DNA of 55,643 nucleotides from Clostridia bacterium (lineage in GTDB: Bacteria > UBA6262 > WVXT01). Below the pieces are notes generated by a model. The model was given only the letters and a program-made list of their open reading frames with translations. It did not search any database and was not told the origin of the DNA. The stretch is taken from positions 1 through 55,643 of the forward strand of contig WJOT01000045.1 in NCBI GenBank assembly GCA_009619095.1. The letters are read 5' to 3'. The translations under genes were made by a program, and so were the position numbers. Of the stretch, positions 17,801-55,643 are shown in pieces; the first letter of the stretch is position 1, and each line of letters starts with the position of its first letter.

Positions 17801-17835
17801 TCAGATTTTACCACCCATCTCCTGTCAATCCACAC
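11788..17835 (-). CDS. Continuation of giant A: membrane segments, PGI domain, start of second PGI-like domain
   Basis: The 2015-codon ORF opens at an internal GTG inside duplicated DNA with no ribosome-binding site, so the start is almost certainly artificial. Order: HEGKH zincin segment (about 30-35), an unrecognised beta-rich region, membrane helices (about 420-580), then a phosphoglucose-isomerase domain. The PGI motifs are GIGGQSFGN (about 665), SKSGITDET (about 723), RFSERSASGD (about 843), TESLGKDG (about 925) and QPYVEIGK (about 1035), with a further GTTGQH at about 1225. A helical region and three or four membrane helices (12050-12590) follow, then the beginning of a second PGI-like domain. 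PGI interconverts glucose-6-P and fructose-6-P; the key motifs look intact here. It fuses in frame to gene A when one 1919-bp copy is removed. Confidence 0.8.
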   Translation of the reverse strand: MWIDRRWVVKSDSARINRLRKLLLPIILAHEGKHLKRWQIALSEKLQSLPAFFRIPLQILFTPILEIPAYFIMPIKFYLNKVLSPAISALGGADRRDLTPIIDDDGFVWRVDSRGTAVGVNETRGVRKVIGKHGNIIEITSHKPGHPRMVKRVTLQNIKTNDEIILSSTPTEISKNLTFNFFSIRVNGIPLQCEDAGLKVFLSNDEYVIKDISAGESSGIGIGMTMANWVASHALRNDVSIIYGPDSRSHSLFHIMKSITKKPKVKGKDRWEELKKVDVYEQFGPLTVALKKGGKVEVEVSGGVVKKCKESPSFEGKSITIAEDGKTTMDGTVVGRLTYFDKLVMLRGAPDPINIVKEPSGAITRYKLKTQKITPSQPQKGRVDGTSPQLVASFWGKRFKEHPKKTAFRDAPLGENAILVLPAFLSLLVGSFIFGIPISLVLAGAWVGAASGILAFVYHKEVFERGKTEPRPATSVEKFNIFLHFLGMGMGSLLLATVIMHGLSSFELLQPGQEGFTARVCIFIMAALSGYLASAFYHSVVNIIQWVRGKPLLVGTRSSLFLGIGKIINKLPLFIYLRRIKGVVNLKGMKGKEKITKKRWREFISSRTFRNALDLNRQLVAEDRIGFESKAGGIFGDYAMKERKRIQEHIRHLKEDLGIKVLIHCGIGGQSFGNRALVESVGTEEGIEIIFLENLGYDYRQIFEEIIKDKGYKPHQIAVHVSSKSGITDETLINFLQTACRQLILRLSKEYYGNYRPAIRLDEMLRKKKDITKVHLEDLRLSEEEKKLLRESLERIILTTTVKRDGMRLENFVYDLATCNLSKEVLGNDEGIFLAHIPENIQGRFSERSASGDVTSCFAGRDIEKINQGAKEVLPVYKSDNTIINSAQKAGAELHLLNPDYIVVAFQASNMVASGSSLLQKFTESLGKDGCAALVIPCIGQKMLNKFASASWPGKVAFILVNVERDSKGKLDPLYMSSEKHPYFVYNQKNLSEEEDARRLQFFDTLIKWYGLFNAGEITADIHSEEYNRRNWQTQPYVEIGKRILTDKAGKLSREEKALQKRYRRMLKRVAKGPAHDLRAIFDKDNNRLTRKEIERLLPDEQLKTETPQPKKPITDKEFLSVLDEILKRRRKLKNVHSITEAKKIDEEVFELFEKIKDYGRGEQPEEIENVAKFLAKAIVVNLKNNNLIPLPYPYSPQEEVEVLGLWFKYILKPGGIPREDEVGTTGQHAVNQFLADGKKVGFSILIDEVTALSKIKRREIPVVNYGLANNYLVDLYPDEIRRLYLESWFEAFNELKRSCLVLRLKDFTTEHGRIQAFRLFGRVNELVEEMVERAGLHKRGKEGRPEEERAGKGARDERTSPFEEIDIDEIIERYRLLVNKISDRSKDTEGVYNRAYLIVLTVLAAYLAEQRGELTEELRKQFREGLLADLEKTQRDEPEKIDKALETLHKINMHTDNRKKSVANGLCKMVELAARKAFKEDYADVKLTTSGPSKNSLLRKYHRVAVSVLGEKLARKQFSRKTIQLAYFVLEAYYWDEKSVRERELVQKAQQKTLQIQNLLIALKNTNRQDIAEAKKILTDEIYIKIETKEKDSIVDRLWEMLDLAYQGKDPTQALLLSKDFEKWGPVNRRDRRKVAIDIIAEEFSTDKEMLVYLIEEMERPSFKGKVEDANKPKLYLQLRRLKYILDRIGARNRLPNKFPKKNKIGGLSTLNEALERIRLFDQEETTQTPGKSPEDSKRSKWREKMEEYRKRKLGRSVLPLVLVGALVAGTLLSIRDSIMGPISDLGASIGQPSKLSRFILLCVLLMGLPVLIVSAIKRVLNWWANIGKVDSEKTLSKKTDTKDSDESKKRPSRRLWSLLFGGFVISLIINSDVFGAVGDIIRNGPQARWGSTFEIPFGLGLWGLFICAVTGVGVWAIYREVGLATVGLMGEERVTLPKALSLDIVQRALAPLSGRGLEPVAAIAQQKQERIEGRMGWLGLEEEKLSKEEIKKTYMDGGSFLRAESRDYLDISY
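14100..15900 (-). other. Phosphoglucose isomerase (SIS-fold) domain
   Basis: It carries GIGG (15815-15846), SKSGITDET (15641-15675), RFSERSASG (15279-15310), ESLGKDG (15035-15070), QPYVEIGK (14711-14735) and TGQH (14131-14168), the set of motifs used by PGI. TGQH comes after QPYVEIGK, which differs from E. coli PGI order. It is embedded in a membrane-protein context instead of being a free cytosolic enzyme. Confidence 0.75.
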
Positions 17836-17838
17836 TGT
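15920..17838. repeat. Tandem direct repeat copy 1 (1919 bp)
   Basis: The block appears identical to 17839-19757 at a constant offset of 1919 in every line compared, with one shared T at the junction. The length is not a multiple of three. It covers the HEGKH segment, the beta-rich region, membrane helices and the very start of the PGI domain. Confidence 0.95.
17554..17584. repeat. Palindromic repeat read in frame (copy in first tandem unit)
   Basis: GTCC and GGGAC ends flank an internal CCGCC-TAA-GGCGG palindrome. It is translated as SPAISALGGADRRD. It is a short dispersed element of the GGCGGGA type, sitting between a membrane-proximal segment and a beta-rich domain. Confidence 0.65.
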
Positions 17839-20800
17839 GCATAATCACCAAAAATGCCTCCTGCTTTACTCTCAAATCCAATTCTGTCTTCAGCCACAAG
17901 TTGACGATTTAAGTCTAAAGCATTCCTAAAGGTTCGGCTTGATATAAATTCTCTCCAACGCTTCTTGGTTATCTTCTCTTTGCCTTTCATTCCTTTTAAA
18001 TTAACTACTCCTTTAATTCTTCTCAAATAAATAAATAATGGTAGCTTATTAATTATTTTACCAATCCCAAGGAAAAGACTGCTACGCGTCCCCACCAAAA
18101 GGGGTTTGCCGCGCACCCATTGAATGATATTGACTACGCTATGATAAAAGGCGCTTGCCAGGTAACCTGATAGGGCGGCCATGATGAATATACAGACCCG
18201 AGCAGTAAACCCTTCCTGCCCTGGCTGTAAAAGTTCAAAAGAAGACAACCCGTGCATAATTACTGTGGCGAGCAACAGCGAACCCATTCCCATCCCCAAG
18301 AAATGTAAAAAGATATTGAATTTCTCCACAGATGTTGCTGGCCGTGGCTCGGTCTTTCCCCTTTCAAACACCTCCTTATGGTATACAAAAGCAAGTATGC
18401 CTGAGGCAGCCCCAACCCAGGCTCCTGCCAGGACAAGCGAAATGGGAATACCGAATATAAAGGAACCTACTAACAGAGACAAGAAAGCGGGCAGAACAAG
18501 AATGGCGTTTTCACCCAAAGGCGCGTCACGAAAGGCGGTCTTTTTGGGATGCTCTTTGAATCTCTTCCCCCAAAAGCTCGCTACCAACTGTGGAGATGTG
18601 CCATCGACTCGGCCCTTTTGGGGTTGGGATGGTGTAATCTTTTGAGTTTTGAGTTTATATCTTGTTATAGCACCAGAAGGTTCCTTGACTATATTAATAG
18701 GGTCAGGTGCGCCTCTTAACATTACAAGCTTGTCAAAGTAAGTTAATCGACCGACCACAGTACCATCCATTGTAGTCTTTCCATCTTCCGCGATAGTAAT
18801 AGACTTCCCTTCGAACGATGGACTCTCCTTGCATTTTTTCACCACACCTCCACTCACTTCCACTTCCACTTTTCCACCTTTCTTCAGTGCCACTGTCAAG
18901 GGGCCAAATTGTTCATATACATCGACTTTTTTGAGTTCTTCCCACCTATCTTTACCCTTAACCTTCGGTTTTTTAGTTATAGACTTCATAATATGGAATA
19001 GAGAGTGAGATCTAGAGTCAGGTCCATATATTATTGATACATCGTTCCTTAACGCATGGGAAGCAACCCAATTTGCCATTGTCATTCCGATGCCTATGCC
19101 TGAAGATTCACCTGCGCTAATATCTTTAATCACATATTCGTCATTGGAGAGAAAAACCTTAAGTCCTGCATCTTCGCATTGAAGGGGGATACCATTTACA
19201 CGAATACTAAAGAAATTAAAAGTCAGATTTTTGGAAATCTCTGTGGGTGTCGAGGAAAGTATGATCTCGTCGTTGGTTTTGATATTCTGGAGCGTCACGC
19301 GCTTGACCATCCTTGGATGACCAGGTTTATGCGAAGTGATTTCGATTATATTGCCGTGTTTGCCTATTACTTTCCGAACCCCACGAGTTTCATTAACTCC
19401 CACAGCAGTTCCCCTGCTGTCAACTCTCCATACGAAACCATCATCATCAATAATTGGTGTCAGGTCTCGCCTGTCCGCCCCGCCTAAGGCGGATATGGCG
19501 GGACTTAGAACTTTGTTAAGATAGAACTTTATGGGCATTATGAAGTAGGCAGGGATTTCAAGGATGGGGGTGAATAATATCTGGAGGGGAATCCGAAAGA
19601 AGGCAGGGAGGGATTGGAGTTTTTCAGATAAAGCAATCTGCCATCGTTTAAGATGCTTGCCTTCATGAGCAAGGATAATGGGTAGGAGGAGTTTTCTCAA
19701 ACGATTAATTCGTGCTGAATCAGATTTTACCACCCATCTCCTGTCAATCCACACTGTATTATTCGCATGGTCTACTGTCGCTGGTTCCCACCACTTCAAA
19801 TGAGTACCATCATCATATTTAACTTCATATCCTTCCTTTACGGCTCTTTTATACAAGTCCGATCTTTTAACAATCGTATCCAATTCTGAATCCAATTCTT
19901 TCCCTTTTATACGTAAAACAAGTAAGTGGGTAATTAATGCCAGTAGGAATGGGACATTACATAATATCACGGCAACAATAGGAACAGCTAAACTCCACCC
20001 GCTTCCAATATAAGGTATCCATATATGTTTTATCACCTCCACCCCTAACCAAACAACAAGTCCTATCGCTGTCAATAATCCAAAAACTGAAGTCTTTTGT
20101 TTGCCTTTTGAATCATCTTTTGGTTTTTCTTCCTTATCTCCCACAGCCAATTTTTCTTCTACAATCTCCACGAAGGTCTTTTCTGTCCTTTGCGCTTCCT
20201 TAGTTATCTCTTTTATAGCTTTCTCTTCATCCCCATCAAAAAATCTCTCTACTACTTTAGCGAATGCCTCACTTATAATCATATATGCATAATCTCTAAG
20301 TGTCTGACGAGCAACACCAAAGGTTCTATTATTAAAGTCTGTGTATTTTCGCCGAAACGACGCCTCCCACCCTTCATAATGATTTATACCTCCTTTAACA
20401 CCCACAAAAGCCAACGGTTGACCTTCTCGACTCATTCCATCCATAGCCTGGTCTCTTCTTCCTCTAACTGCATGAGCCATATACACATCCTTCTTCCACC
20501 CCCTTATCCTTGCATTCGATTGACCTTTCATAAGAATAACATCACAGTTTTTTAATATAGTTGCTAAATTCTTACTCATCCTTGCCGGGTCTATTCCTTG
20601 AATTTGTGGACCGTTTTTAAAGAGGATAAACCTTCTTGGGGTTCTCAATCTTCTAAAGATTCTGAAAAGTTTTTTATCCTGTGTTCTTCTAGAATCTTCT
20701 TCTAAAATATCTTCTACATCTTTCCACGAAAGATGGCTTAAATACTGTCCATTCTTAGGTACAAAATATATCTTTAAATTTGGATTAATCTCTTCCATTG

Positions 20801-23800
20801 TTTCCGAAAGTTTTAAATCTACAAGACCTGCAACATTTCCCTCTGTAAGATAAACAAGTGTCTTTTGAGGTTTATCTTTCAAATATTTATTGTAAAAATC
20901 TTCTATAAATTCATCCCCAAAAAGTCTTAAAGTAGTTTCGCCTTTCTCAAAGTTATTTATTATATCCTTAATATGTGATTGCAATTGGGGATATATCATT
21001 TTATAGGGAAAGAGCCATACATTTAGCCGAGCTCCCCGTTGAATGACATCTACCCTGTCCATCAATATAGCTAATTTAAGCCAATGTTTAAACCTTTCTA
21101 AATCACTTACAGGTGTATATCTCATTTTTTCATCCTCTCTCCTCAGAAATTCAGCAACTGTTTCCTGACATGATTTGTTTCTATAAATAAGAGGATTTTC
21201 ACGGAGGTCGTCGGGAATATATACTCTACTTCGGGCTAACAATTTAAAAAGCTTTTCAGCTACTAAGGTTGCCTGAGAAGGGGTAAGGCTTCTCCAGAAA
21301 TAATCACCCGATGCCAATTTGTACTCTTGCAGCATTCTTAATGTATCTCTCAATTCTTTCTCCAAGACTTTTAGGTCTGGATTTACTATTCTAACCTTTA
21401 TTTCATTCAAAAATAAATCTACGACCCCGGCTTCTATCTCCTCATTAACCTCTTCATAAGCTGATAACCCTCTCATCCCTTGGTCAAATAGAGTCTTTAA
21501 TGGGAACACACCTGCAGGCGTATTCTTTCCTTCTCGGAAGATTTCTGAAACCACCTCATCATCCGCCACATCTTTCGGCGTCGGTATAAGAAATTTCATT
21601 ATCGCTTCATCCTGCTTTTCTGGACCATAATTAGTAATATCTATAAACCCCTTTCTTTTTAAAAAGTCTATAAATCTTTGGCGAGCTGGTCTTCTTTTTC
21701 TCTCCGTTTCAACAGAAACTTCATTTATCCTATTTTTTACCTCTGTTTTGGTGGCATCATCCATCAAGATTGGCCTAAGGGAATTAGAATATTCTGTTGG
21801 GTGTTTATTTAAATCTTTCCCGAGCCAATCGAAATCAACAAACTGTACTTGAGCAGGGCTTATGTCCTTTATACTTATATTAGATTCTTTTAACCTTTCC
21901 TTAAGTCTATCTATTTTAGCCTCCTCTTCTGTTAAAAAATATGTATAAACTGTGACCAACTCCCAATTCTCCATGCGAGAAACAGTCAACCCTAAACTTT
22001 CTTTTAAGTCATTTATCATACTATCTATCTTTCCCTTCTTTTGTATTGGAACAGGGGAAATTGTATAGGCATAAATAATATCATCTTCCCTGACAACAAC
22101 GAAATCTTCTGGCAATCTTTCTTGTAATTTCTTTTCTAAAGATTTAATCCTATCTTTAGTCTTAAATCTATACATTAAGGCATAATTTTTATATCCGTTC
22201 TCTTCACCAACTATTCTAAGTCTACCAACATCTATCTGTAAATCTAATCGTTCACTGACTTCACGAAAAGCAGCCTCCTGGGGGTCTTCCGGAAATTCTT
22301 TTATACTACCATCTTCACTCATTCTTCGTACCAATCCTAAATGACCAGCAGCAACGGTCCATCTATTTGGGGAAAGAGCCCTATAAGGGTTCCTCTTAAC
22401 AAGAAGAACCTTCCCCTGTCTGTTGCATAAAACTACCCTTATACTTTTATGCAAAAGACCCTTCTCGTGTGCGTCATCTTTAGTAACCCCTTCTATATGT
22501 CTTCCTTTTTTATCATAAATTGGAATTTTTTGTCTTTCTTTTATTATTTCATGGATAGGATAGAAACTTACTTTACCCTTTAGTCCTTTCCTTATATATT
22601 CTTGAGTCGTGGGAGTTAGTTCTTCATGGCTTCTAACAGCTTTGTACCTCTCAACACCGCACTGAGCATACAATATGTGTGGTGTAATTTCTTTACCTAT
22701 TGCCTGCTCGAACACCTCTGAGGTAATATCTTCAGAACAAGTTTCTAACTGAATTACAGGAGTTATTATCTTGTTCCCCCTTTCATCTACTTCAACGGCG
22801 TTCTTTTCTACAAAATAAACAGGCAATCTATCTGTAATATGTTTTACTTTTTTTACTAATTTATCTTGAGGTAGATTTAATAATTCCTCTTTTGTTATAT
22901 CAAAGAGGTTAAGGAATTTCTCTATAGAAATCCAGTAAGACATCATATTATGTGGATATTTCGCTATTTCTTCAGGAGACTGATTTTTAAATTTGTCTGA
23001 GAAAGCAGGACTTCCGGCCATTCGCAACTCCCCATCATAATCTAAGAGCATACCACCAGGCTGGCCCAAATTATCCACAACTTCAGCTACAATAGCCTTA
23101 TTTGACTTTTCCAGCAATCCTATATAAAGAGGGTCAATGGTATCGAGCACATTACTTACTGTCCCTACCTTTATATATTCCACCCCATCTTCTAATATCT
23201 CCTTAAGTACTCCACTTGTAATTAAATAAGTAAATACATCAAAATGTCCGGTAGGGTTATAATTTTCTATTGGAGCGCTTTTTGCATGGAATAAAGAAAG
23301 AACTGGTATTAATTTGCTATTACAAACTGGACAGTTTACCTTCCCTTTATTATACTCTTCTTGTGAGACCTTTAATTTTTTATGCCTAGGACAGGTGTAG
23401 TGAAGAGATAAACGTCTTGTTATTCTCTGCATATAATAATAAACCCGCCCTTCCACTCCAAAATTACTATTTATGTTCATAAAATCTTTTGTCATCTTCG
23501 ATGTTGGAGCACTAACCATAAGACCAGTTGGGATATCAATTTCATGCTCTTCTGATACCTTTTTTGTATTAGCATTTTTTAATTCTATAAAAGACCGTTC
23601 CCTACCCTGCATTCTTAATAAATTAGCTAACACTTTGGGCAAAAATGGTATTTCCCATCTTGTACTTTTACCTCCAGTAGCTAACAGCCGAAATAATTTG
23701 CTCTTTCTACCCGCACCCTTCATCTTTTGGATGCCTATCTTTCTAAGTTCTTCTTTATCTTCATCAGTCAGATTCTCTCGAACATCGATGTAATTCTGCT

Positions 23801-26800
23801 CGTTCAGTTCATCAAGTGCTACATATCCTATGGATTTCTTTGGCGGTTTAATCTTGCTATCGTCGAGCTGAAAGGTTTCTTTTGTTAGTTCGTCTTTCTT
23901 AATCTTTTTATATATTTTAACAAACCACTTAACATCAAAGAATTCTTTTACATTTTCTTTTTCTTCTTCACTCAATCCTTCGAGTGGACACACCTCTTTT
24001 ATTTTTTGTTTGCGATAATCTTTAATGAATTTTATCGGCATTATGCCATAAGCAGGGATTTCGTATAAGTAAAGAGTAGAGAGTAGAGGGTAGAGAGTGG
24101 CGAATAAAGAGTGGTGAGTAGAGAGTAGAAAGATGCTTAAGTGTATACCTTCATGGGCAAGGATAATGGGTAGGAGGAGTTTTCTCAAACGATTAATTCG
24201 TGCTGAATCAGATTTTACCACCCATCTCCTGTCAATCCACACTGTATTATTCGCATGGTCTACTGTCGCTGGTTCCCACCACTTCAAATGAGTACCATCA
24301 TCATATTTAACTTCATATCCTTCCTTTACGGCTCTTTTATACAAGTCCGATCTTTTAACAATCGTATCCAATTCTGAATCCAATTCTTTCCCTTTTATAC
24401 GTAAAACAAGTAAGTGGGTAATTAATGCCAGTAGGAATGGGACATTACATAATATCACGGCAACAATAGGAACAGCTAAACTCCACCCGCTTCCAATATA
24501 AGGTATCCATATATGTTTTATCACCTCCACCCCTAACCAAACAACAAGTCCTATCGCTGTCAATAATCCAAAAACTGAAGTCTTTTGTTTGCCTTTTGAA
24601 TCATCTTTTGGTTTTTCTTCCTTATCTCCCACAGCCAATTTTTCTTCTACAACCTGGACGAAAGTCTTTCCTGTCCTTTGCGCTTCCTTAGTTATCTTTT
24701 CTATAGCCTTCTCTTCATCCCCATCAAAAAATCTCTCTACTACTTTAGAGAATGCCTCACTTATAATCATATATGCATATTCTCTAAGTGTCTGACGAGC
24801 AACACCAAAGGTTCTATCAATGGCTGGGTCTTCGAATTTCTTCCAGAACGAAGCCTCTCCATTATAATAATGAGGTATACCCGCTTTGACACCTACAAAA
24901 ATGGGTGGGTTACGCGCCCAACCTACTCCATCCATAGATTGGTCTCCTCTCCTATTAACCACATGAGCCATATACATCGGCTTCTTCCATCCCCTTATCC
25001 TTGCATTCGACTGACCTTTCATTAAAATAACATCACACTTTATTAATACCTTTGCCAAACTATCACTCATCCTTGCTGGGTCTATCCCTTGAATCTCTGG
25101 ACCTTTCCTAACAAGGATAAACCTCTTTTGTTGTCCAAACTTCCTCAACTTTCTGAAAATCATTTTTTCGGGCGGCTGCGTACGGTCATGCTGCAAAATA
25201 ATTTCTACATCCCTCCATGATAGGTCGTTCAGACACTGCCCATTCTTTGGGACAAAATATATGGTTAAATTTGGATTCATCTCCAGCATTGCCTCAGCGA
25301 GTTCTAAATCTGCAACACCTTCACCGTTATTATTTGTTAGGTAGACAAGCACCTTGCGAGGTCTGCCTTTTAAATACTCATTGTAGAATTCTTCTCTGAA
25401 AGTGGGTCCAAAAAGTCTAAAGGTATAATTGCCTTTCTTAAATTCATCTATAATCTCTCTAATATAATCCTCTGGATGTTTTAACAACCTCAAGCGAGAT
25501 TCCTTTTGAATAATATCTACCCTATTCATTATTGTGGCTAATTCAACCAAATATGTAAATCTTTCATATGGTTTCATCGACTTATATTTTTTACTTTTTA
25601 CCTCCTCTTGCAAAAATCCATAGACGATTAAATTACATAAACCATTTAAATGTCTAAGAGGATTTCTATAAAAGGCGTCCGCTATCGGTGAAGGCTTAAA
25701 CATCATTTGTGACAGCCTGAATAATTGTATGGTTACTAAAGTTGCCTGGCTTGGTGTAAGGGTTTCCCAGAAATACTCACCCGATGCCAATTTGTACTCC
25801 TGTAGCAGCTTTAACATATCCACCAGTTCTTTTTCTAAATAGTCTAATGCATGGCTTTCTCCTTTCTGCCGCCTTGTCTCTTCTAAGAAGAAATCAATAA
25901 CCCTGGCTTTCATTCCCTCTTTTATTTCTTCGTAAGCTAATAGACCTTCCATTCCTTGATCAAGTAGAGTCTTTAATGGAAACACACCAGCAGGTGTATT
26001 TTTACCATCGCGGAAAAGCTTAGCAACATCTTCGTCCTTCGCTTCCTTTATGCGCATTGGCATAAATTGGCTTAGTATCCTATCATCTTCAGGTTTTGGC
26101 AAGAATAACCTCATTATCTCACGATCTTGTTCTTCTGGACTTAATCCTGTAATGTTTATATTTACCCTTTTCTTTAGAAATTCTATGAATCTCTCACGAG
26201 CCGGTTTACTTACTCTTTCTGTTTCAGCAGAAACTTGCTTTGTCCTATCTCTTACTACTTTTTTAATAACATCATTTCCCAATACTAATTGAACTACATC
26301 GGTAAATTCTCCGGGATGCTTATTGTAACTCTTTTCCAGCCATTCAAAATCAACAAATTGTATTTGAGTGGGGTCTAAAGTCTTTTTGCGTATATCAGTC
26401 ATTCTTAATCTTTCGGAAAGGGTATTCAATTTAGCCTCTTCATCTTCTGTCAAAACATATGTATAAACTATTTTTAACTCCCGATTCCATGTGCAAAGAA
26501 CATTAACTTTTAAATCTACTTTTAACTCCTCTACTATCTTATCTATATGTGGCTTTAGGAGTTCTGACCAGAAAGATGCTATAGTATAAGCATAAACAAT
26601 ACCCCCCTCTTCGACAACAATAAATTCTTCTGGTAATTTCCTTTCTATTTTTTCTATTATCTCATCTAATAATGGGCCAGTTATCCCTTCGGTCTCAAAT
26701 CCATACATCAGGAGATAGTTTCTATATCCTTCCTTCTCACCAACTAATCTAAGTCTTTGAGAATCTATCTGCAGGTCTAATCTTTCATTTATTTCACGAA

Positions 26801-29800
26801 ATGCAGTATCTTTAGGTTCTTCCGGAAATTCTTCTATTTTTTCATCCTCTTCTTTAAATCTCTGTAGTAATATTGAATGACCAGAGGCATTGGTCCACCT
26901 ATTTGGGAATAGGGGCCGAAAAGGTGCTCTCCTGGTAAGAAGAACCTTGCCATCACTATTATATATGACTACAATAACGCTCTTATGTAGCTTTCCCTCC
27001 TTATGAACCTCTTCTTTAGGTAACCCCTCCTTAAATAATGGTTTCTCAAAAGGAGGCTCCGCATAAACCGGAATTCTTTGCCTTTCTTTTAATATTGTGA
27101 TTAAAGGATAGAAACTCAATTTCTTCTTCAGATTTTCCCTTATAAATTCTTGAGTAGTGGTGGTTTGTTCTTCGGGAGATTTAACAGCTTTATACCTGTT
27201 GACCCTACACTGGGCATATAACATATATGATGAAGCCTTTTTGCCAGTCGCCTTCTCAAATGCCTCTGAAGTAATATCTTCAGAGCAGTTCTCTAACTGA
27301 ATTACAGGGGTGATCTTTTTGCGGCCTTTCTCTTCTTCAATAGCATTCTTATCCACTAAATAAGAGGGTAATTTATCTGTGATACGTTTTACTCTATTCT
27401 CTATTTTCTCTTGAGATAGATTTAATAATTCCTCTTTTGTTATGTTAAAAAGATTGATGAACTTCTCTACAGAGATCCAGTAAGACAGCATATTATGTGG
27501 ATATTTTGCTAACTCTTGCAATCGCTGGTTCTTAAATTTATCTGAAAAAGCAGGGCTTCCAGCCATTCGTAATTCTCCGCCATAATCAAATAACATCCCA
27601 CCAGGCTGGCCAAAATTATCCACGACCTCAGCTACAATAGCCTTATTTGACTTTTCTAATAACCCTATATAGAGAGGGTCAAAGGTATCTAATACATTAC
27701 CCATTGTATCTATCTTTATATATTCCACTCCATTTTTTACAAACGCCCTGAGCACTCCACTAGCGATTAAATATGTAAACACATCAAAATGTCCAGTGGG
27801 ACTATAATTTTCTATTTTATCAGTTGTTGCTTTGAACAAAGAGAGAACTGGCATTAACTTCCTATTACAATGTGGGCAGATTACCTTACCTTTATTGTAA
27901 TCTCTTTGTGAAATCTTTACTTTTTTATGTCTGGGGCAGGTATAGTGACGAGATAAGCGCCTTGCTATTCTCTGCATATAGTAGTAAATTTTCCCTATCA
28001 GCCCAAAATTATTGCTTATATCCATAAAACGCTGTGTTACCTTTCCCGTCATAGGACTGACCATAAAGCAAGCCGGAATATCAATATCATAATCCTCTGA
28101 TACCTTTTTTGTATCAGCGAGTTTTAATTCTACGAAAGACCTTTCCCTATCCTCACCTGTCTTGGGGTCTTTCATTCTTAGCAACTTAATTAGACCTTTG
28201 GCCAAACCTGATATTCTCCATCTCGTACCTCTGCCGCCGCCGGTAAATACGCGCGCCAATTTGCTTTTTCTACCCTTACCTTTTATTTTCTTTATACCAA
28301 TCTTCCTAAGCTCTTCTTTATCTTCATCAGACAGATTCTCTTCAACATCGATATAGTTCTCCTCGCTTAGTTTATCAAGTGGTATATATCCTTCCTTCTT
28401 TTTTGGTGGTTTAATATTATCCTCATCAAGTTGGTAAGTTTCTTTTGTCAATCTACCTTTTTTAATCTTCCTATATATCTTAAGATACCACGGGCCATCA
28501 AAAGTTCTTCTTACCTCCTTTTTTTCCTCCTCCTTTAAACCTTCGAGTGGCCGCACCTCTTCTATTTTAGAGAGGAAATAATACTCTCCAATAATCTTCC
28601 CTGGCATCACAGCATATGCAATGATTTCATTAAGGAGGTAGTAAATAATCCCGACAAGACCTTCCCGCCCTGGTATCTGCAATCGGCTGATGTGCATCCC
28701 CTCAAGAGCAAGAATAATAGGAAAGATTAGTTTTCTTATCCCGGTAATAAACCAGTTGGATTTTACTAACCATCTACGATTAATAACCAAAATTCTTGCT
28801 TCAGGATAAATTTTTGCTATTCTAAATCTGCTCAACCATCTCTGGATCCTATTCCTCCCCCCGGGCTTAAAAAGTATAACCCTTCTAATCTTCTTATCTG
28901 TCTTAAACTCATCAAGAATATATTTCAAAGCTGGGTCGAGCTCTTTATCTTTTAAACTGATAAACGGAACAATAAAGAGGCTGATAAACAATGCCACCAG
29001 GTATGGCAATCCATATAATATTAGGGCAATAGCAGTGATAAATAAGCCCAACTCACCTCCAGTATGCGGTATACCTGTAAGCAGTATAATCAAGAAGCCC
29101 AACACAGAGGTCAAAAGCGTGGTTATCCCTAATCCAAGAATTGAGGTTTTTTGTTTGCCTGTACTAGTGTCTTCTCTTTTCCTCTTTCTTGACTCTGTTT
29201 TATCCTCATCGGCAGCTTCACCGGGTTTTGGAGGTTGCCCCTTCTTAACTTTTTTCTTAGGTCTTGCAGCTTTACTGACCTGAATCCTTAACTGTAATAA
29301 AAGTCGTGTAAGTGCCTCTCTTGCACGCTTTAATAATGACCGCAAACGGGCAAGCATTTCAACTGTATACTTTCTTGCTCTAACAAAACCTTGACTCGAA
29401 GCCTGTTTGACATTCCTGCGTGGCACCTCTCCTATTTGCTCTTCAGCCTCAACTGTGGGTGGTTCCTCTAATTCTGTTTCAGGTCCTTCTAATCGTTGCT
29501 CTGGTAATTGCCTAAGATTCTTCTTAATTTCAACTCGTGTCTCTGCTGCTTGACGATGGTATCCATCACCGATATTTTGGCGATGTTCTTCAAGGAGTTC
29601 CTTTAATTTTTCATAACGCTGCATCTCCGGAGAGGCAGAATCATCAGCATCAGGTTCCGGAGGAGGTATCCTAGCTATATCTGCACTGAACCTTCTGTGC
29701 TGCAAAATATCATATCCTGTTAGTATCATATCCCAAATTTTGTATACAATAAGGATTCCAATAACTATATAAACAAGCATCATAATAGCATTAGTTGCAG

Positions 29801-44800: not shown

Positions 44801-47800
44801 TAGGAACTAATTCCTCTTTCCCATCCTTCGTCTTCCTGTACGCCTTGCATATTACCTCAATCTCCTCTCCGTCTACTCGCACATAGGTTTTACCATCCTT
44901 AACGAAGACCTCCTCAGCAGGACGATAATATTTATCAGTAAATGCATAGTATCTTCTTACCTCTGTACCATTCCCAAATTCATCCTTTATTATCTCAGCT
45001 AACATATATCTTAATTTAGTCTCTTCATCCACGCCCTCTAATTTTGCATATACCTCTAAGAGGAGCTCTTTTGAAATCCTAAATCCCTTTGCCTTTACCC
45101 AATCCTTAAACATATCCGTCTTCCTGATTCTGATTCTTCTCCTTATTTGTGTTTGCGCTATTATGTCTGCAATCTCCTTAGGAAATCGCTTTATGCGGTC
45201 AGAATACCTTATTGAAAGTTGCGATAAAAGGTTAAGTGCAACTGTTTTAGGCGTCTTCTGTGGAGCTGGAAATACTTTTACTTTTGGTGCTTCAAACGGT
45301 TCTTCCTCTGCTGGTTTTTGGTCGGCTGGCTTAGTGGGTTCCCCAGCAACAATTGTTGGTTTAGTGGATTCTTTCTCGGCAGGTCTCTCTTCTCTGGTTA
45401 CCTCTGGTTCAACTATTGGTGGTGCAACTTCTGGTTCTTCTTCAACTGCTTCTGTGGCTGGAGTAACCTCTCTCTCTGCAGGTTTTTCCTCTGGCTTCTC
45501 TTCTTCCCTTTCCTTCAGAATATTCACTATCAATTCAAACATTGATAATGAGCTCTCGCTAAGTTTAATCTCTCTTTCAAGTCTTACAATCAGAGGTGGG
45601 GTACCACCGCTTGGTCCAAGAAGGTTCCCTGTTTCTTTGTTGAGGTCTTCTACTGAAAGCCCAGGCTCTATACCTCTCTTCTTTGTATCTTTTTCATAGG
45701 ATTCTCTCTCGTTCTTTACATATTCCTCTAATGCCTTGACCCGTTTCTCAAGTTCCTCTATCTTCTTGTCCAGCTCTTTCTGTTTCTCTTCGTCCTTCTC
45801 AGCCTTCCTCTTTTCTCTTAGCCCCTCAAGCTCCTCTTTCCTCTTCTTTATAGTAGATTCTATTCTTTCTATATCCTCCAGCAATGGTAAAACTGCCTCA
45901 ATATTTTCAATCTGTTTCCTTATCTCTTCAGCCCTTTGCCTGTCTTCAGGGGTTGCCTTCTTATTTATCTCATCAAGTATGTATTCCTGCTTGCCTAATT
46001 CAAGTTCTGCTAACTCAAGCTGTGCAGTGGCTCTCTCAAGTTCTGTCTTTGCTTGTTCCTGTTTCTTGCGGGCTTCTTCAATCTTCGAATCAAACTTCTC
46101 ATCTGCATCAGGAACAAGTCTTCTGTATTCAGTAAGTATAGCCTGACGCTCTTCCTCAGCCTTTAAAGATGGTAATGAAAGCTCCATAAACTCTATATTT
46201 CTTTCAAGTCTTACAATAAGGGCTGGGATACCGCCTCCCAATCCAAGAAGCTTCTCCATCTCTTTCTTAAGGTCTTCTACTGAAAGCTTTGGATTTATCC
46301 CTTTCTCTTTTACCTCTTTTTCATATAATTCCCTCTCGCTCTTTGAATACTCCTCTAAGGCTTTAACCTGCTTCTCAAGCTCCTCTATCTTCTTATCAAG
46401 CTCTTTCTGTTTCTCTTCGTCCTTCTCAGCCTTCCTCTCTTCTCTTAGCCCCTTTAACTCCTCTCTCCTATTCTGAATAGCAGATTCTATTCTTTCTATA
46501 TCCTCCAGTAATGGTAAAACTGCCTTAATATTTTCAATCTGTTTCCTTATCTCCTCAGACCTTTGCTCGTCTTGAGAGGTAGCCTTTTTATCTACCTGCT
46601 CAAGTATGTACTTCTGTTTGGCCAACTCAAGCTCTGCTAACTCAACCCTTGCATTTGCCCTCTCCAGCTCTGTCCTGGCTCGTTTGAATTCTTTACGAGC
46701 TCGTTTTATTCTTGATTTAAACTTCTTATCTGCATCAGGAACAAGCTGTCTCAAGTAGGCGAGGCGGGCACGATGTTCCTGGCTCTCTTCTATGCGTTCC
46801 CTTAGTTTATCAAACTGACTTTCCCAATCTATGACACCTTTCTTAGCCGGCACTTCTCCACTTATAAGATTCTTTATGGTTTGTGAAGCTAGTAGGGTAT
46901 AATGATCAAATACTCCTTTTGCTACCTGCGCCACTTTAACATCTGCTGCTGTATAAGAAACTCCTTCATATTGGCTCTTTGCTACAACAGCTGCAGGCGC
47001 TGAAGCCAACATAGAACCACCCATAAGGGGCATAATAAGAGAGTTTAAGGCTTTAGTTATATTTTCGGAATTGGTTGCACGGTGGAAAAATCTACTGAAC
47101 CCGACTTTTGCTATATTCAGTTCAACTAGAGCGGCTGTAATGGCTTTTGTAAAGGCTGGTTCCTGTTCATCACTTAAGATATTGGAAGGAATTTTTGAAA
47201 TCATCAGATTGATTTCTGGCTGGGAGAAAAACCTTCCATCTTTGGGAGGAGAATGAGCCTGCATCTGCTTTAAAAATTCCCGCAAAAGCCTATCTTTCTG
47301 TGAAAGCTCATTCAATATATCGTAAGCTAACTGCATCGGATTCTCTGTCCCTACTACTTGCTTTTTAAAAGCCGAAACAGATGAACGGATGGAGGTAGAA
47401 ACATCTTTAAGTCCCAAAAACGATAAGTGTTTCAGGGATCTGTCAAATGCTCTTGTTGGTTCTTTGGCAAGGTAGGAATAATCCAACCGCCTCTCTATTC
47501 TACTTGTAATGAGACGGTGGGTCAGATACCCTAACAAAATAGATATTCCAAAAACAGGGAGAGCAACCATAATCTTCGCTAACAGTAAAGGTAATCCTAA
47601 AGCAACGAGCGGGGCAACCCATCCACCTGTAAATAAAATAGCAATTCCTAAGAGTGCACCTGCAGATATAATGACCATCCTTGCATTGAGCGCTGAAGCC
47701 CTGACCATATACGCCCATCTGCTCATTCTTTTCTCAGCTGCTTCTCCTTTTGCAATGGTGTCCTGCTGTGCAATTCTCCGTGCAATATACCACTGGGACA

Positions 47801-50800
47801 TCATAAATAATACACCCTGAACCGCAAAAAGTGCCAGCAAGGGATAACCTACGATAGCAAGGACTCTTCCTCCTGAAATACTACCTGCTTCGATAGCTGC
47901 CAAAAATGACTTGAATACAAAGGCACCAAAAAGCGATGTTCCTCCAATACCTGCAATGCCTATCAATAAACCAGCAGCAAAACCGAGCGGTCCTACCCAT
48001 CTATTTTTCGCAGCAGCATCACTGCTCTTCAGGAAAATTCTGTATGCAAGAAATCCACCCGCTGCAATAGCAAGTACACCCGGTATAGAAAACATAAGGG
48101 CTGAACTCCCCCCAGTAACAAGTAAAGAGGCAGTAATGCCTAACCCCACCAGAAAACCTCCAATTCCCCCTCTGAAAAACCTCTTAGCTGCGCTCATTGT
48201 TAGTCTTGGCGCCTTCTTGAAATCTTTACGCGAGGTAGCTAATAGTAATAATGAAGAAGCAACTCCGATGATGCCTAATACAGCTGATGAGAGGAGGAAG
48301 ATTGCACCAACTACTTCCGCAGTAATCAGTACTGTACCTACAAGGGAAAGAAGTGTTAAAGCAGCTATGAAAGGAGAAAACGTAGCTGTTATGGTAAGGG
48401 TTTTCCTCCACGCAGATATGCCAACAGCCTCTACTATTTCCTTACCCTTCATCCTGTGGCCAAGAGCAATAGCATCTGCCATCTTTGCTACGCTTGAATC
48501 TACCTGTGCTAATCTCTTGACCTGTGAACTCAACGCCCACCCTACGAAAATGGTGATGAGAGCAATAGAAAGAAGGCCCACTGCACCGATTCCAAGCAGA
48601 AGTGAAAGAATATTACCTATTACTGGCAAACCTGTAGCAGAACTAACGCCTCCAACAGTAAGTGCCTTAAATACCCAGCCTAAGAAGAATACCAGGCCGA
48701 TATTTGAGCCAATGGCAAAAGCTGGAGGGACTATCCTTATGAACAAAAGCTTCATCCTGTCTTTCAGAGGAATCCTCCTCTCCTTTTTCAACTCCCTGCC
48801 TGCCTGTGTCCGTTGTTCTTCACCAACTTCTTTACCAGCAAACTGACAGGCAAGCCCTATAACCTCTCCTGCCATTTTCTGCTCTGCTTTCCCTCTCATG
48901 TTTTCATATATCTGACCTGTTATACGTTTTATTTCTGAGTATATCTGTTGTGGTTTGATAAAATTCTTCTGGTATCCCGGACGCGAAGGCAGTTTCTGGA
49001 GTCTGTGTTTATTCCACCCCATATCTCCGATAAATCGCATCCACTCCACATCAACTATCCGAAGAGCTTTAAACTTAAGATGGTCGGTAATAATGGTATA
49101 TATAGCCTCTGCATCTGCTGAAGCACTCTTGCCCTTTAACGTACTCACCCTAATGAGAGCATCCCGTACAGTTTCTATATCCATATTCTCAAAACCGAAT
49201 TCTTCAACCATAACGGATAAGATATCTTCTGCTGAAAGTATCTCAGTTGCTTTTTTGCCTCTGTGAACTGTCACCACATCAGCTATTCTTTCTTGAATCG
49301 CATCGAGAACCTCAGGTTCAATAATAGCTTCTACGCCACCATCCGTTATTCCCCTTCTGAGGTTAGCTTGTTCTTGATTGAATGGTCTCAAAAATTCACC
49401 AAATTGTATCTCCTGCACCGTCGTGTTATGGTTATGGTCATTGATAGCCTTTCTCATCTGAAAGACAATTTTCTGGTTTCGTTTGGATTCTTTAGTATTC
49501 TTGTGAAACTGAAGGTCGTATACCTGGCCATCTTTCACCTTACTTTCAAAATACGCTAGCTCCTCAGTAATCAGGTTTTTATATTTTATCAAAATAGAGT
49601 CTTTCGCCGACCCGAAGCCAAACCAGAAGCCAATCCTGCCATTTCTGGCAACTCTACCTCTAAACTGTATGTCTGTCTCATCGAGTTCATCCCAGTAGGT
49701 AGAGATAGCAACCATATTGTCCCCTTTAAAATCTACTCCTCTGCCACCTAAATTTGTCGATACAATGATAACTTTCTTAAATCTGGATAACTCTTCAACC
49801 TTATCTTTTATAAGCTCATAATTATCTGAAGTGAACTCTATAATAACGCTATCGATAGAATCATCTCCAGCCATCTTTTGTAAATCCTGTACAGTCTTAC
49901 CTGATAAGTTCTCTTCAGCATCGCCTCCTACAATCCTGCCATCTTGGGTTAAACGTCTCACATTACCTTTCCCGATATCTGTTTGAAGAAGTGAATCCAC
50001 AAATTCACTTACTTTTTTATCCGATTCACATCTTACCAGTATAGAACCCACTTCTGAAAGACCTTTATTTTTCATTTCATCTGTCAAATTACCTCTACGA
50101 AGTTGAGCTACCATGTCAGTAGCAGCGTTTGTTGCCGAATCTTTATCAGAAAATAGTTGTGCATAATCGGTTCTTTGAGGTTTTGCTTCCTCACCCTCTG
50201 GCCTCAGGTCTACAAAATCCAAACCAAATGCTTCTGCCGTATCTCGACCTATAGTCGCTGAAGCCGCACTGAACCCTGAAACAAGCTCGAGCTTAGGATT
50301 CAATATCTCCGGCAATCCCATTGAAGCAACGCTCATCTCTTCTGGTTCAAGCGGGAGGTTAGCATTATTAAGACGATTCTCTTTTATCCTCATAGCTATA
50401 TCAAGACCATAGCTCCAGCGCCTTCCTTTTAGTTTCTGACTACTGGCTTCTTTATCAATAATTTCAATATCAGAGTCAGTTACGTCGTAATGTTCTCGTC
50501 TGTTGTAATAAAGGTAAGCAGAAAGCGCAAGTTCTACGAACTCCTGCCATAAGTAGAAATCTCCAAATCCAAAAAGTGTCCCTTTATTCTGTTTGTATTC
50601 GTCCAATGATTCGAGTTTCTTCTTAAGCCAGGTTATTCCTTCTTTCTGTCTAAGAACAACTGTTGCTGAACCATCATTCCTTTCGCAGAGCGCGTTATTA
50701 ACATTCTTGCCGTCTTTGGTTAACAAGCCCCTGTGTATCAGTTCATCAGCAATCTCCTGCATTCGTAACCTTTGTCTGGCGAGTTCCATTAATTTATTTT

Positions 50801-53800
50801 CATCAAACATACCTGAGCTTGATATAACACAAGGCGTAAATACATGCAGCTTTAGCGGGATATCACCTTCATCGAATGCAAGAAAGTATGTCTGCTCTCC
50901 CCACTTGAGCGCTTTGTCTTCTGATCTTCGTGAAGTAAATACATCATCTTCAAACCGGTGTATGAAATTATGGATGTTTAGATAAACAATATCTGCCTCA
51001 GCATACAATTGTTGCTCTGTAGTCTCTTCTTTGTTCCCCCTGCCATCAACAAAATATGCTTGCCTTCTTCCTCCCGGGGAAACGACAAAACCTGTCTTCA
51101 GGCCAAAATAAGCACCTACCTTGCCTCCCTTCGTTCCATCTCTCTCAACCAGATTTTCTTCTGTATGAACAATTGTTACTTCCTTTTTAACAGATGGGGT
51201 TTTCTCCCGTTTTATCTTGTTAGCAAAGCTTCGTAGAATTGCGGTACCATTAAAAGCAAACGATTTACCTGCTGAAGTAGGCATACGTACTATTGCACCA
51301 TGCCGCATTGAACGAGCACCCTTCTTCTGCATCTTCCACATTTCTTCATCCCAAGGGGCATACTGTTCTCCTGAAATGGTAACCGCTTTACCAGTAAGAC
51401 CGCTGGCCAATATAGCCTGTTTTACTAACTCTAGAGCTTCTTCACTATCAAAGTCTTCTTCCTGGGCTTTTAGCGCTTTTAATCTCCGGTCAAACTCTTC
51501 CTGAGTTATTATTTTTGCTATTTTTGCGTGGCCTTCATCTGGTCTTTCCTGGGAAACAAGCTCAACTATCTCCTGTATGCCTTTAAGCACAGTGGTTTTG
51601 GCTCTGGGTTTTCTTAAATCCAACTCCTCTTTTAAGTATTCGTCTAATTCTGGGTCGGGCCTATATTTTAAGTCTCTTAACATTGCCTGTTTTACAGAGG
51701 TGGCTATTGCTAGTCTCAATTTTTCATCTGAGGCATTTTTCTCTTTGAGGTTAGCATATCTTTCGTACAATTCTAGGAAGGCTGCGTGGTTAATGCGTTT
51801 GGAGGATTCTAGATATTTAAGGTAGGAGTCTCTTTGTGCATCAGTAAATTTGTCACTTAAGAGGTACTCGAGTTCTTGCTGGACTACCCATACCTCTTCT
51901 GCAAACTTCTGTTCAGTAGTTAATTTTCCTCGTGGCCTATATTGCCTAAGAATGATATGTAAAAGTTCATGGTATATAGTTAAACTCAAAGCAACATCAT
52001 TCCCAAAAGCATTATCATCAATGTCAATTATCCTATCCCAGTTCCTCCCTAAACTTAAAAGGTTTCTCCAAACTTTTATTTCCAGACTTTCCAAATATTC
52101 TATAGTAGATTGTGGTAGAGAAAAGATTTGTTTTAACCTTCTGATTGCATTTCCTTTTGCAGTATCTATTCTCTTTCTGGCATCCTCGCTTATCTCTTTA
52201 ATTTCCTGTTCTTGCTTTTTAGTTTTCCTTACCTTAACAAACTCATGAGTGTCGGGTTCTCCAATACTTCTCAATGTTAACAATAACTTTTCTAACTGTT
52301 CTTCAATAAATTTATCACCTTCCCTTATAGTTATATCTATGTCAACTCCATCATCTTTAGTGTTTTCGAAGCACCGTAATCGTGTTTCCATCTCATGTTT
52401 GCTTGCCTCTAACATTAATCTTATATATTCTTTGGTGTGTATATCCTCCTTATCTTTATCTTTTAAACTAGGACTTAAAACAAAGTATAATTCTCCACCT
52501 CGTAATTCAAAGGATACGTTTTCAAGCGTCCTTAAACTAAGTAAAGCCAAATCTCTTTTTTCCTTTTTTTGTATATAAGACTTTTTATCTAACTCTGTTC
52601 CGATTTGTGGTGATAGCGGATAACGTTTCCATACTTTATCAAATTCTTCTGTATTTTCTTCAATCTTGTTTTCTAAGCGTTTTATTACTTCTACATCTTC
52701 ATCATCAAGATATGGAAATAAAAACTTTACTCTTGACAAAATATCTTTCATGAATTTTATGTTATCAAGCATAAAGTAATAATCCTTTGTTAAGTCAGCT
52801 AGAGTTACCTTCCAATCTTTCTCCTCAAGGTAGCTTATAAGTTTTTGCCCTCTATAGGCTATGGCAGGTGCGATATTGTATACAATTTCACGTTGTATTA
52901 ACACTCTGCCTAAAATATCTGCTGGACTACCGATCATAGTATTATGATAATACATCAATTGTAGCCATCTGTCTCTTATGGAAGTATCCTTTGATTTTAT
53001 TTCCTTAAAACGTACCCAGTCTCTATAGTGTTCATCTGATACCTGGTTTCTATCACAATCTAAATAGCTATACTCTTTTCTAACATCTGCATAAATAATG
53101 GCTGATTTACGTTGTATTTCATTAGCCTCATCCATGTAACCATTCATTCTCTTTTGAATTTCCCTAACTTTATTGTAACTCTCTTCATCCATTACTATTT
53201 TTGCTTCTTCTAAATCTTTTGCAAGTTCGGTAAGTAGTTTCACATCTTTATGTGCTTCTTCCAAAACTTTTTTTATTTTTCCACTGTGTAAATACTCCTC
53301 GAACATTAGTATCGCAAGTTTTGAGGGGCTAGGCTCTTTCTTGGATCCGAAAAGAGGCTGGTCAGATGTCAATCTGGCTTTGAGGGATGATAAGTGCATC
53401 TTGATTCCATCCATAATGCGGCGAGTTCGGCTCTTTGCAAGGCTACTTTTAACTTTTTCTATGCTTCTATCTACCAAGCCTTTAAGGTTGACTTTTGCTC
53501 CCTTAAATTCTACTATTTTGCCCTTTCTTTGAATGGCAAAGTAGATAATCGTGCCGAATATAACAAAGCCGGCTATCAGAATGGGAATGAAATGGTGAGG
53601 GAATAAATTAGCGAGTTGGTTCGCGACTTCTGATTTATCGGACAGGGTTGTTTCAAGTGGCAGACCGCCACTGGGAAGATGCGAAGCGAGTGACGAAATT
53701 CGTTCCGTGACTTCTTCCATAATATTATGAGAAATTTGACTACCCCAGTCAAAAAATCCTCCTAAGAATACGAAGGGTATAAACGCGAAGGAAGAAGATG

Positions 53801-55643: not shown

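Follow-up and report, generated by a model that had tools for sequence, protein, structure and literature searches.

Giant open reading frames (ORFs) have been reported from Omnitrophota and related phyla, where they encode many helices and few annotated domains, and roles in adhesion or in the degradation of prey surfaces have been proposed for them (PMC10066038; PMC12057145, the latter citing the West-Roberts 2023 preprint). Bacterial giant ORFs are already known, yet unexplained.

A second relevant architecture is that of polymorphic toxins and similar proteins, in which a conserved trafficking end is combined with exchangeable domains. The locus described here lies on a contig of 55,643 nucleotides (G000:C31), the whole of which constitutes the window, and encodes a giant protein, giant A, that can be compared with both. 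Giant A shares with the Omnitrophota giants its great length (>20 kb), its many membrane helices and some carbohydrate-related domains; however, the Omnitrophota proteins have been described with few annotated domains and with adhesin or polysaccharide-degradation themes, whereas giant A comes from a different phylum-level group and its family combines a fixed cap and tail with swapped housekeeping-type modules and a bundle-fused SecA-like motor. The family resembles polymorphic toxins in having a fixed end and exchangeable domains, but both of its ends are fixed, the variable part lies in the middle, and the modules look metabolic. Canonical SecA is a free-standing cytosolic ATPase that works with SecYEG; giant A shares its collinear DEAD, preprotein-binding, helicase and helical-scaffold-like segments, but here the motor is internal and fused to 10 helices. 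Finally, eukaryotic-type UDP-glucose pyrophosphorylase (UDPGP, PF01704) is matched in its fold-defining segments and in a PxGHxD-type motif, while the copies in giant A differ by loss of the metal Asp, an altered glycine-rich loop, a zinc-ribbon-like insertion, and fusion to NUDIX and ARMT1-like domains. A keyword literature search for SecA-like fused giants returned nothing apparently on point, and novelty is claimed relative to the incomplete coverage of that search. The design, with fixed ends and an exchangeable middle, looks undescribed, and does not look like a simple sugar-polymer machine.

Host lineage

The source metagenome-assembled genome (MAG) is 86% complete, with 3.3% contamination. 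Six species are available from the phylum-level group of the host, including three more of the same genus (G001-G003) and two of the order, and beyond this group the next kin share the domain only. The canonical SecA of the host has its nearest named counterparts in DAOVHK01 CSMAG_1339 (98% identical) and JAUXBS01 CSMAG_2805 (65%), cold-seep MAGs that both carry the submitter label 'Clostridia'; its identity to Omnitrophota records is only ~51-52%, no higher than to other phyla. Membership of the host in Omnitrophota, the phylum whose giant genes the sequence-only reading had mentioned, is thus not supported. A cold-seep genome catalogue (PMC10491686) reportedly uses CSMAG genome names, and the habitat of the host is probably sea-floor cold seeps.

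Reading frames and full extent of giant A

The window as printed holds the chain of giant A in three ORFs rather than one, owing to a duplication and a frameshift, and a second giant follows downstream:

17808-55643, minus strand: stop-free giant ORF, 12,611 aa, 5'-open
53832-55643, minus strand: N-terminal cap, partial (giant residues 1-604)
15919-19757, minus strand: exact tandem duplication, period 1,919 bp, copies meeting at 17838; frame broken
11788-17835, minus strand: ORF3, continuation of the chain (frame join and relatives)
9957-11843, minus strand: ORF2, end of the chain, with PGI-like domain b and then the shared C-terminal tail
9957-55643, minus strand: predicted whole chain of giant A, ~14,780 aa, with the missing N-terminus added, one duplication copy and one frameshift
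1-9093, minus strand: ORF1, the next giant, 3'-open; cap with signal-peptide-like start, linker HEGLH, ARMT1-like domain, HEAT-like repeats

The giant ORF is a single stop-free frame of 12,611 codons (37.8-kb, zero N), and its 5' end runs off the contig edge. It is encoded on the minus strand, a detail that the sequence-only reading had left out. Its start is matched by that of the downstream paralog ORF1, with 92% identity in two blocks at the DNA level and 80% identity over 629 aligned columns at the protein level. ORF1 carries ~203 extra N-terminal residues, opening with a signal-peptide-like stretch; since the frame of giant A exits the contig and ORF1 possesses these residues, giant A is short of them here.

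At the other end, positions 15919-17838 and 17838-19757 are 100% identical head-to-tail copies, and because 1919 mod 3 = 2, reading of the second copy shifts into a different frame, that of ORF3. The frame end at 17808 is not natural and is caused by this duplication. When one copy is used, giant residue ~12,602 continues into ORF3, and the alignment of the PGI-like domain to 3ff1 passes straight across the join (DYAMKER...). The remaining repeats within the gene are 72-92% identical, save one 98-bp stretch at 99%, so that the perfect 1.9-kb pair arose either through misassembly or through a duplication in the very recent past. The first 98 bp of the 1,919-bp repeat (read strand) are 99% identical to positions 24148-24245, which may have led to a wrong join. 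Further along, near 11,800, there is an overlap between ORF3 and ORF2, which are in different frames; their equivalents in G002 (L045) and G003 (L049) form one frame, which points to a second frameshift, real or due to sequencing error. A single chain of ~14,780 residues ending at 9957 is thus implied by the relatives and by the frame, not by a continuous frame in the window. Since no relative spans the whole chain on one contig, the contiguity of the middle of giant A is read from the open frame itself.

The possibility that the chain is a chimera of unrelated contigs has to be considered at this point, since wrong joins typically leave such a trace, a flawless 1,919-bp tandem repeat that breaks the frame, and the contig ends inside the repeated cap. 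Such an assembly artefact is nevertheless exceedingly improbable: the duplication alone looks artificial, and related multi-module giants occur in three other MAGs. A chance or artefactual origin of the whole ORF was likewise rejected, given its 12,611 codons without a stop and these related giants.

Shared ends and unlike middles

What unites the giants of this genus is found at their ends, the C-terminal one being the following:

9957-10727, minus strand: shared orphan C-terminal tail, ~270 aa, which ends giants in G000-G003

A profile of this C-terminus identified the tail in ten giants from four congeneric species, at the C-terminus in every complete case, with at least three in the host genome (the window, C125 and C128), three in G002, and two each in G001 and G003, the G003 copies being interrupted by stretches of N or by breaks in the frame. 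None was found outside the genus among 386 genomes, where matches essentially cover the PGI part only; there were no relatives in plasmids, and no significant match in the PDB. By eye, the tail looks like a degenerate HAD-like fold (FLFDFDSL, FAFVSS, ISIITDN), which no profile match backs. The N-terminal cap, in turn, is common to giant A, ORF1 and the G002 giants, and those giants whose start is available begin with it. It had no significant match in the PDB, and a scan of genome contigs gave no confirmed relatives.

By identity, the tail-bearing giants fall into three loci: A (the window, L045, L049), B (L065, L068, L070, L071) and C (L066, L067, L069). Within locus A, the window and L045 (G002:C34) have in common only the last ~780 residues, and upstream of this common end L045 carries CofD and adenosine deaminase domains; within locus B, the likeness of L065 and L071 is confined to the last ~790 residues. 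Direct comparison of same-locus middles, over the stretches available, revealed no homology. The giant A tail is followed by an ORF with a cap, in the window as well as in L045. In L045, a remnant of only the first ~70 cap residues (5533-6639) lies between that tail and the intact cap, which suggests decay or recombination of tandem giants.

The content of the middles is equally diverse. The locus C giant L067 (G001:C187, 2778-13022) encodes, in one frame of 3,415 aa, phosphotransacetylase, acetate kinase, HTH domains and sigma-70 regions 2 and 4, together with membrane segments and the shared tail. Its acetate kinase match covers positions 2-391 of 392 (E=2e-140), with catalytic motifs intact by eye, and is the sole acetate kinase found in the G001 genome, while relatives in the order carry free-standing copies. 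A Pfam search for PGI in the four congeneric genomes, all of them incomplete, gave no match, and the PGI-like domains of the giants may therefore be the only PGIs there.

Common ends and unlike middles are direct observations. The reading that we prefer, tentatively and with somewhat less than even confidence, is that giant A belongs to a family, specific to this genus, of giant proteins of the inner membrane whose ends are fixed and whose middles can be exchanged. A bolder version is doubtful: that the giants form a new class of cellular protein, membrane-threaded multi-enzyme chains with a common cap and tail, whose middles are exchanged wholesale among sister species and which supply some enzymes of central metabolism that the cell encodes nowhere else (acetate kinase, phosphotransacetylase, possibly PGI). 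If true, basic metabolism would be built into a single anchored chain that also has a SecA-like motor of its own. In either case, the cap and the tail provide a sequence handle by which, in this genus, giants can be recognised and counted, and by which one can ask what is conserved.

Several insertions in the cap are of note. An interspersed repeat of ~40 bp, with ~35 copies in the genome, lies in frame in the giant A cap at 55341-55382 (giant residues ~88-101, SSPLPLGERVRVRGKYP); the ORF1 cap carries the same element (SPLPSGERVRMRG), and in the G002 cap this linker holds another insert, NVGATLRGRP. Residues ~500-530 of the ORF1 cap (VIARSEMTKQS...SVARNDK) form a repeat-like peptide insert that is absent from the giant A cap and looks like a translated genomic repeat.

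The SecA-like motor and its helix bundle

Downstream of the cap, the chain crosses the membrane and reaches its best-recognised module:

53532-53588, minus strand: membrane segment followed by positive charges, a predicted out-to-in crossing between cap and motor (hydrophobicity scan and topology model)
51957-51971, minus strand: HELLH motif (HExxH, metallopeptidase-like), before the motor
48894-51506, minus strand: SecA-like motor with TSAGKS (Walker A), FDEGD, TNLGGRGVDF, QFRGRVARNG and helical-scaffold-like LRIVDVEW
47532-48701, minus strand: 10-helix membrane bundle (predicted helices), directly after the motor

The motor occupies giant residues ~1380-2250, where SecA_DEAD (E=4.9e-8), Helicase_C and SecA_PP_bind all exceed the Pfam cut-offs, the last as a partial match at 23.8 bits versus a cut-off of 23.5. 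The SecA-like profile of giant A also matches SecA in the PDB (E=2.8e-12), and the alignment to 4ys0 is collinear over four SecA segments and includes GRGxD, RGRxxRxG and LRIxDxxW, the helical-scaffold segment being its weak part. The SecA-like motor proposed from the sequence is thus borne out by family matches, by the structure-database match and by the motor motifs. G002 encodes another SecA-like protein with membrane segments after it (L048), ~22% identical to the giant with part of the helix region included, and an ordinary SecA of 927 aa is encoded elsewhere in the host genome (G000:C9).

The arm after the bundle

The bundle is followed by a long stretch with fewer recognisable domains:

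46983-47039, minus strand: weak membrane segment, possible in-to-out crossing at the start of an exported arm
45474-46856, minus strand: duplicated coiled-coil-like block (DNA copies 45573-46118 and 46200-46745, 82% identical)
40644-42896, minus strand: candidate alpha-barrel region (GH76/GH88/GlcNAc-2-epimerase-like), weak, with several related families in agreement
36744-38786, minus strand: diverged tandem repeats of ~85 aa, 'YD-like'
33684-34856, minus strand: putative further barrel-like region (residues 6930-7320)
30384-32108, minus strand: GT-like region, with SEDID and LTRW strings followed by helices

The domain assignments of the sequence-only reading fared unevenly here. Its alpha-barrels hold for the first region, where GH76 exceeds its cut-off and related families agree, although GH88 and GlcNAc-2-epimerase remain below theirs; for the second, at 33684-34856, a Pfam search gave no relevant family. 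The repeats taken for YD repeats are instead a diverged ~85-aa tandem repeat that matched no Pfam RHS/YD family. The GT2/GT84-like polymerase found no backing beyond the motif-like strings: in this region Pfam gave no family at E<=5, a sister-species glycosyltransferase was not matched at the profile level, and 386 genomes contained no homologue. AlphaFold2 models of this region and of the N-cap reached a pLDDT of 38 and were unusable. For the first 8,800 residues of the giant, a single-sequence PDB search gave no match and NCBIfam yielded one, weak and irrelevant. A PHROGs search gave no useful match, and viral contigs scanned with the motor, the GT-like region and the tail contained no relatives.

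Topology and selection

The dozens of membrane helices that had been noted are supported by a Kyte-Doolittle scan, which detects ~40 hydrophobic segments in the chain. A crude dynamic programme based on Kyte-Doolittle hydrophobicity and the positive-inside rule places the motor, the GT-like region and the UDPGP, NUDIX, ARMT1 and PGI domains inside, and assigns the barrels and repeats to the exterior. A penalty of 8-9 units is incurred when the motor is forced outside or the barrels inside, whereas UDPGP copy 2 and the first PGI are weakly placed and flip for ~1 unit. The side of the N-cap is undecided in the model (cost 0.2), its export being signalled solely by the signal-peptide-like start. 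The model puts the tail outside, a placement that is unreliable because a hydrophobic strand in PGI b was probably taken wrongly for a helix. The motor and the nucleotide and sugar-phosphate domains are thus cytosolic in this rough model, and the external ATP- or UTP-dependent domains that had been named as counter-evidence to the earlier reading were not found.

An externally placed arm of barrels and repeats would suit a surface weapon or adhesin used in predation, as proposed for the giants of Omnitrophota and related lineages (PMC10066038; PMC12057145), with a middle that varies between fixed ends in the manner of an arms race. However, most of the recognised modules are cytosolic and housekeeping-like, neither toxins nor adhesins, and a link to prey is absent, which makes such a role distinctly unlikely. 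The swapped middles, the bundle-fused motor and the apparently intact acetate kinase nonetheless allow the idea to be recast as testable statements on topology, processing and metabolism.

Across the cap, the modules and ORF2, dN/dS ranges from 0.18 to 0.49, indicating purifying selection. This bears on the suggestion that the giants arose by non-adaptive accretion, with gene copies fusing in frame at repeated linkers and then decaying, to no common function. Degenerate catalytic sites, the complete turnover of middles, the tandem duplication and the in-frame genomic repeats are all in keeping with that process; values well below 1, the strong conservation of cap and tail, and the retention of the SecA motor motifs are not, and accretion of this kind is unlikely.

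Predicted cytosolic modules and linkers

The distal part of the chain consists of a repeated set of modules separated by linkers:

28554-29168, minus strand: linker copy 1, membrane hairpin and degenerate LEGMH
27054-28346, minus strand: UDPGP copy 1, inserted CPRH...CPHC zinc-ribbon-like loop; metal Asp replaced by Gly
26739-27020, minus strand: NUDIX copy 1, IPP-isomerase-type
24999-25604, minus strand: ARMT1-like copy 1 (LTNNNGEGVAD, KGQSN)
23964-24590, minus strand: linker copy 2, membrane hairpin and HEGIH...EIPAY
22554-23816, minus strand: UDPGP copy 2, zinc-ribbon-like loop; metal Asp replaced by Ser
22203-22454, minus strand: NUDIX copy 2
20484-21116, minus strand: ARMT1-like copy 2, degenerate (LTEGNVAGLVD)
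19464-20102, minus strand: linker copy 3, membrane hairpin and HEGKH...EIPAY
14656-16068, minus strand: PGI-like domain a (ORF3), SKSG and GRFS retained

Giant A contains two copies each of UDPGP (E=7.5e-35), ARMT1-like (E=2.5e-29) and NUDIX (E=1.8e-11) domains. The UGPase-like assignment made earlier stands as far as the family is concerned, with two copies matching the profile, but not as regards the chemistry: the metal-Asp motif NxDN has become TMGN in the first copy and TVSN in the second, so that the Asp is lost from both. The glycine-rich loop reads GGGRGTRW and GGKSTRW, respectively, and both copies have an inserted CPxH...CPxC loop. Judged by these residues, UDPGP looks catalytically dead in both copies; yet its dN/dS of 0.20, among the lowest measured, suggests that the block is kept for something. 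The catalytic residues of the ARMT1-like domains are nearly intact in copy 1, degenerate in copy 2, and intact by eye in ORF1. The PGI-like domains score below the Pfam cut-off, with SKSG and GRFS present in domain a and the arginine of GGR[FY]S lost from domain b (ORF2). The PGI formerly assigned to the giant ORF does belong to the chain, but it straddles the end then given for that ORF.

It is against these modules that the proposal of the sequence-only reading can be weighed, that of a self-contained machine for the export of a polysaccharide or envelope glycan, in which precursor synthesis, polymerisation, trimming and SecA-driven transport are united in one chain. Each domain does lie in the right compartment of the rough topology model, and sugar-related families (UDPGP, PGI, GH76/GH88-like) are present. 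Nevertheless, the UDPGP metal Asp has been lost twice, the arginine is gone from PGI b, and a polymerase is not confirmed, the GT region having no family match. The combination is also not conserved: the same-locus middle differs between species, and elsewhere in the family there are enzymes unrelated to glycans (phosphotransacetylase, acetate kinase), as well as a sigma factor. A machine of this type is very improbable for giant A, and export of a polysaccharide is not supported as the general function of the family.

There are three linkers in the chain and a further one in ORF1, and neighbouring copies are up to 85-99% alike at the DNA level. HEGxH is found in them at giant residues 10497 and 11993 and at ORF1 residue 1050, and a Glu farther downstream is conserved. 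Such HExxH motifs between modules would be expected if the HEGxH...EIPAY linkers were proteases that cut a polyprotein into separate, hairpin-tethered enzymes, a scheme also favoured by the near full-length acetate kinase of the G001 giant, the only one found in that genome. Linker copy 1 is degenerate (LEGMH), however, and since the motif is absent from the other giants examined, a general polyprotein model is not favoured, and cleavage of this sort appears quite improbable.

A proposed working of the family

If giant A is indeed an inner-membrane protein with fixed ends and exchangeable middles, a tentative scheme can be drawn. The cap, which is probably exported, and the ~270-aa tail are the conserved parts, and the modules between them would be joined by membrane hairpins. 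The cytosolic SecA-like ATPase, fused to its own 10-helix bundle, would probably move a polymer through the membrane, and this polymer might be the adjoining arm of ~4,500 residues, with its coiled coils, sugar-hydrolase-type barrels and repeats. Because catalytic residues are kept in some modules and lost in others, the cytosolic UDPGP, NUDIX, ARMT1 and PGI domains would more likely bind or sense sugar phosphates, or perform side chemistry, than run a UDP-sugar pathway; the intact-looking acetate kinase elsewhere in the family would fit working enzymes as well as sensors. New modules would probably be gained through recombination at the repeated linkers.

Other giants and their neighbours

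The locus B giant L065 of the host genome (G000:C125, 2-14488) has 4,829 aa and no Pfam hit; its PTGFGKT and HDEVDT strings resemble another DEAD-type motor, while SecA profiles gave no match. A near-identical RND-type transporter lies close to the locus C giant in both G000 and G002, and the same 512-aa TPR protein follows the locus C giants (L066, L067, L069) in three species.
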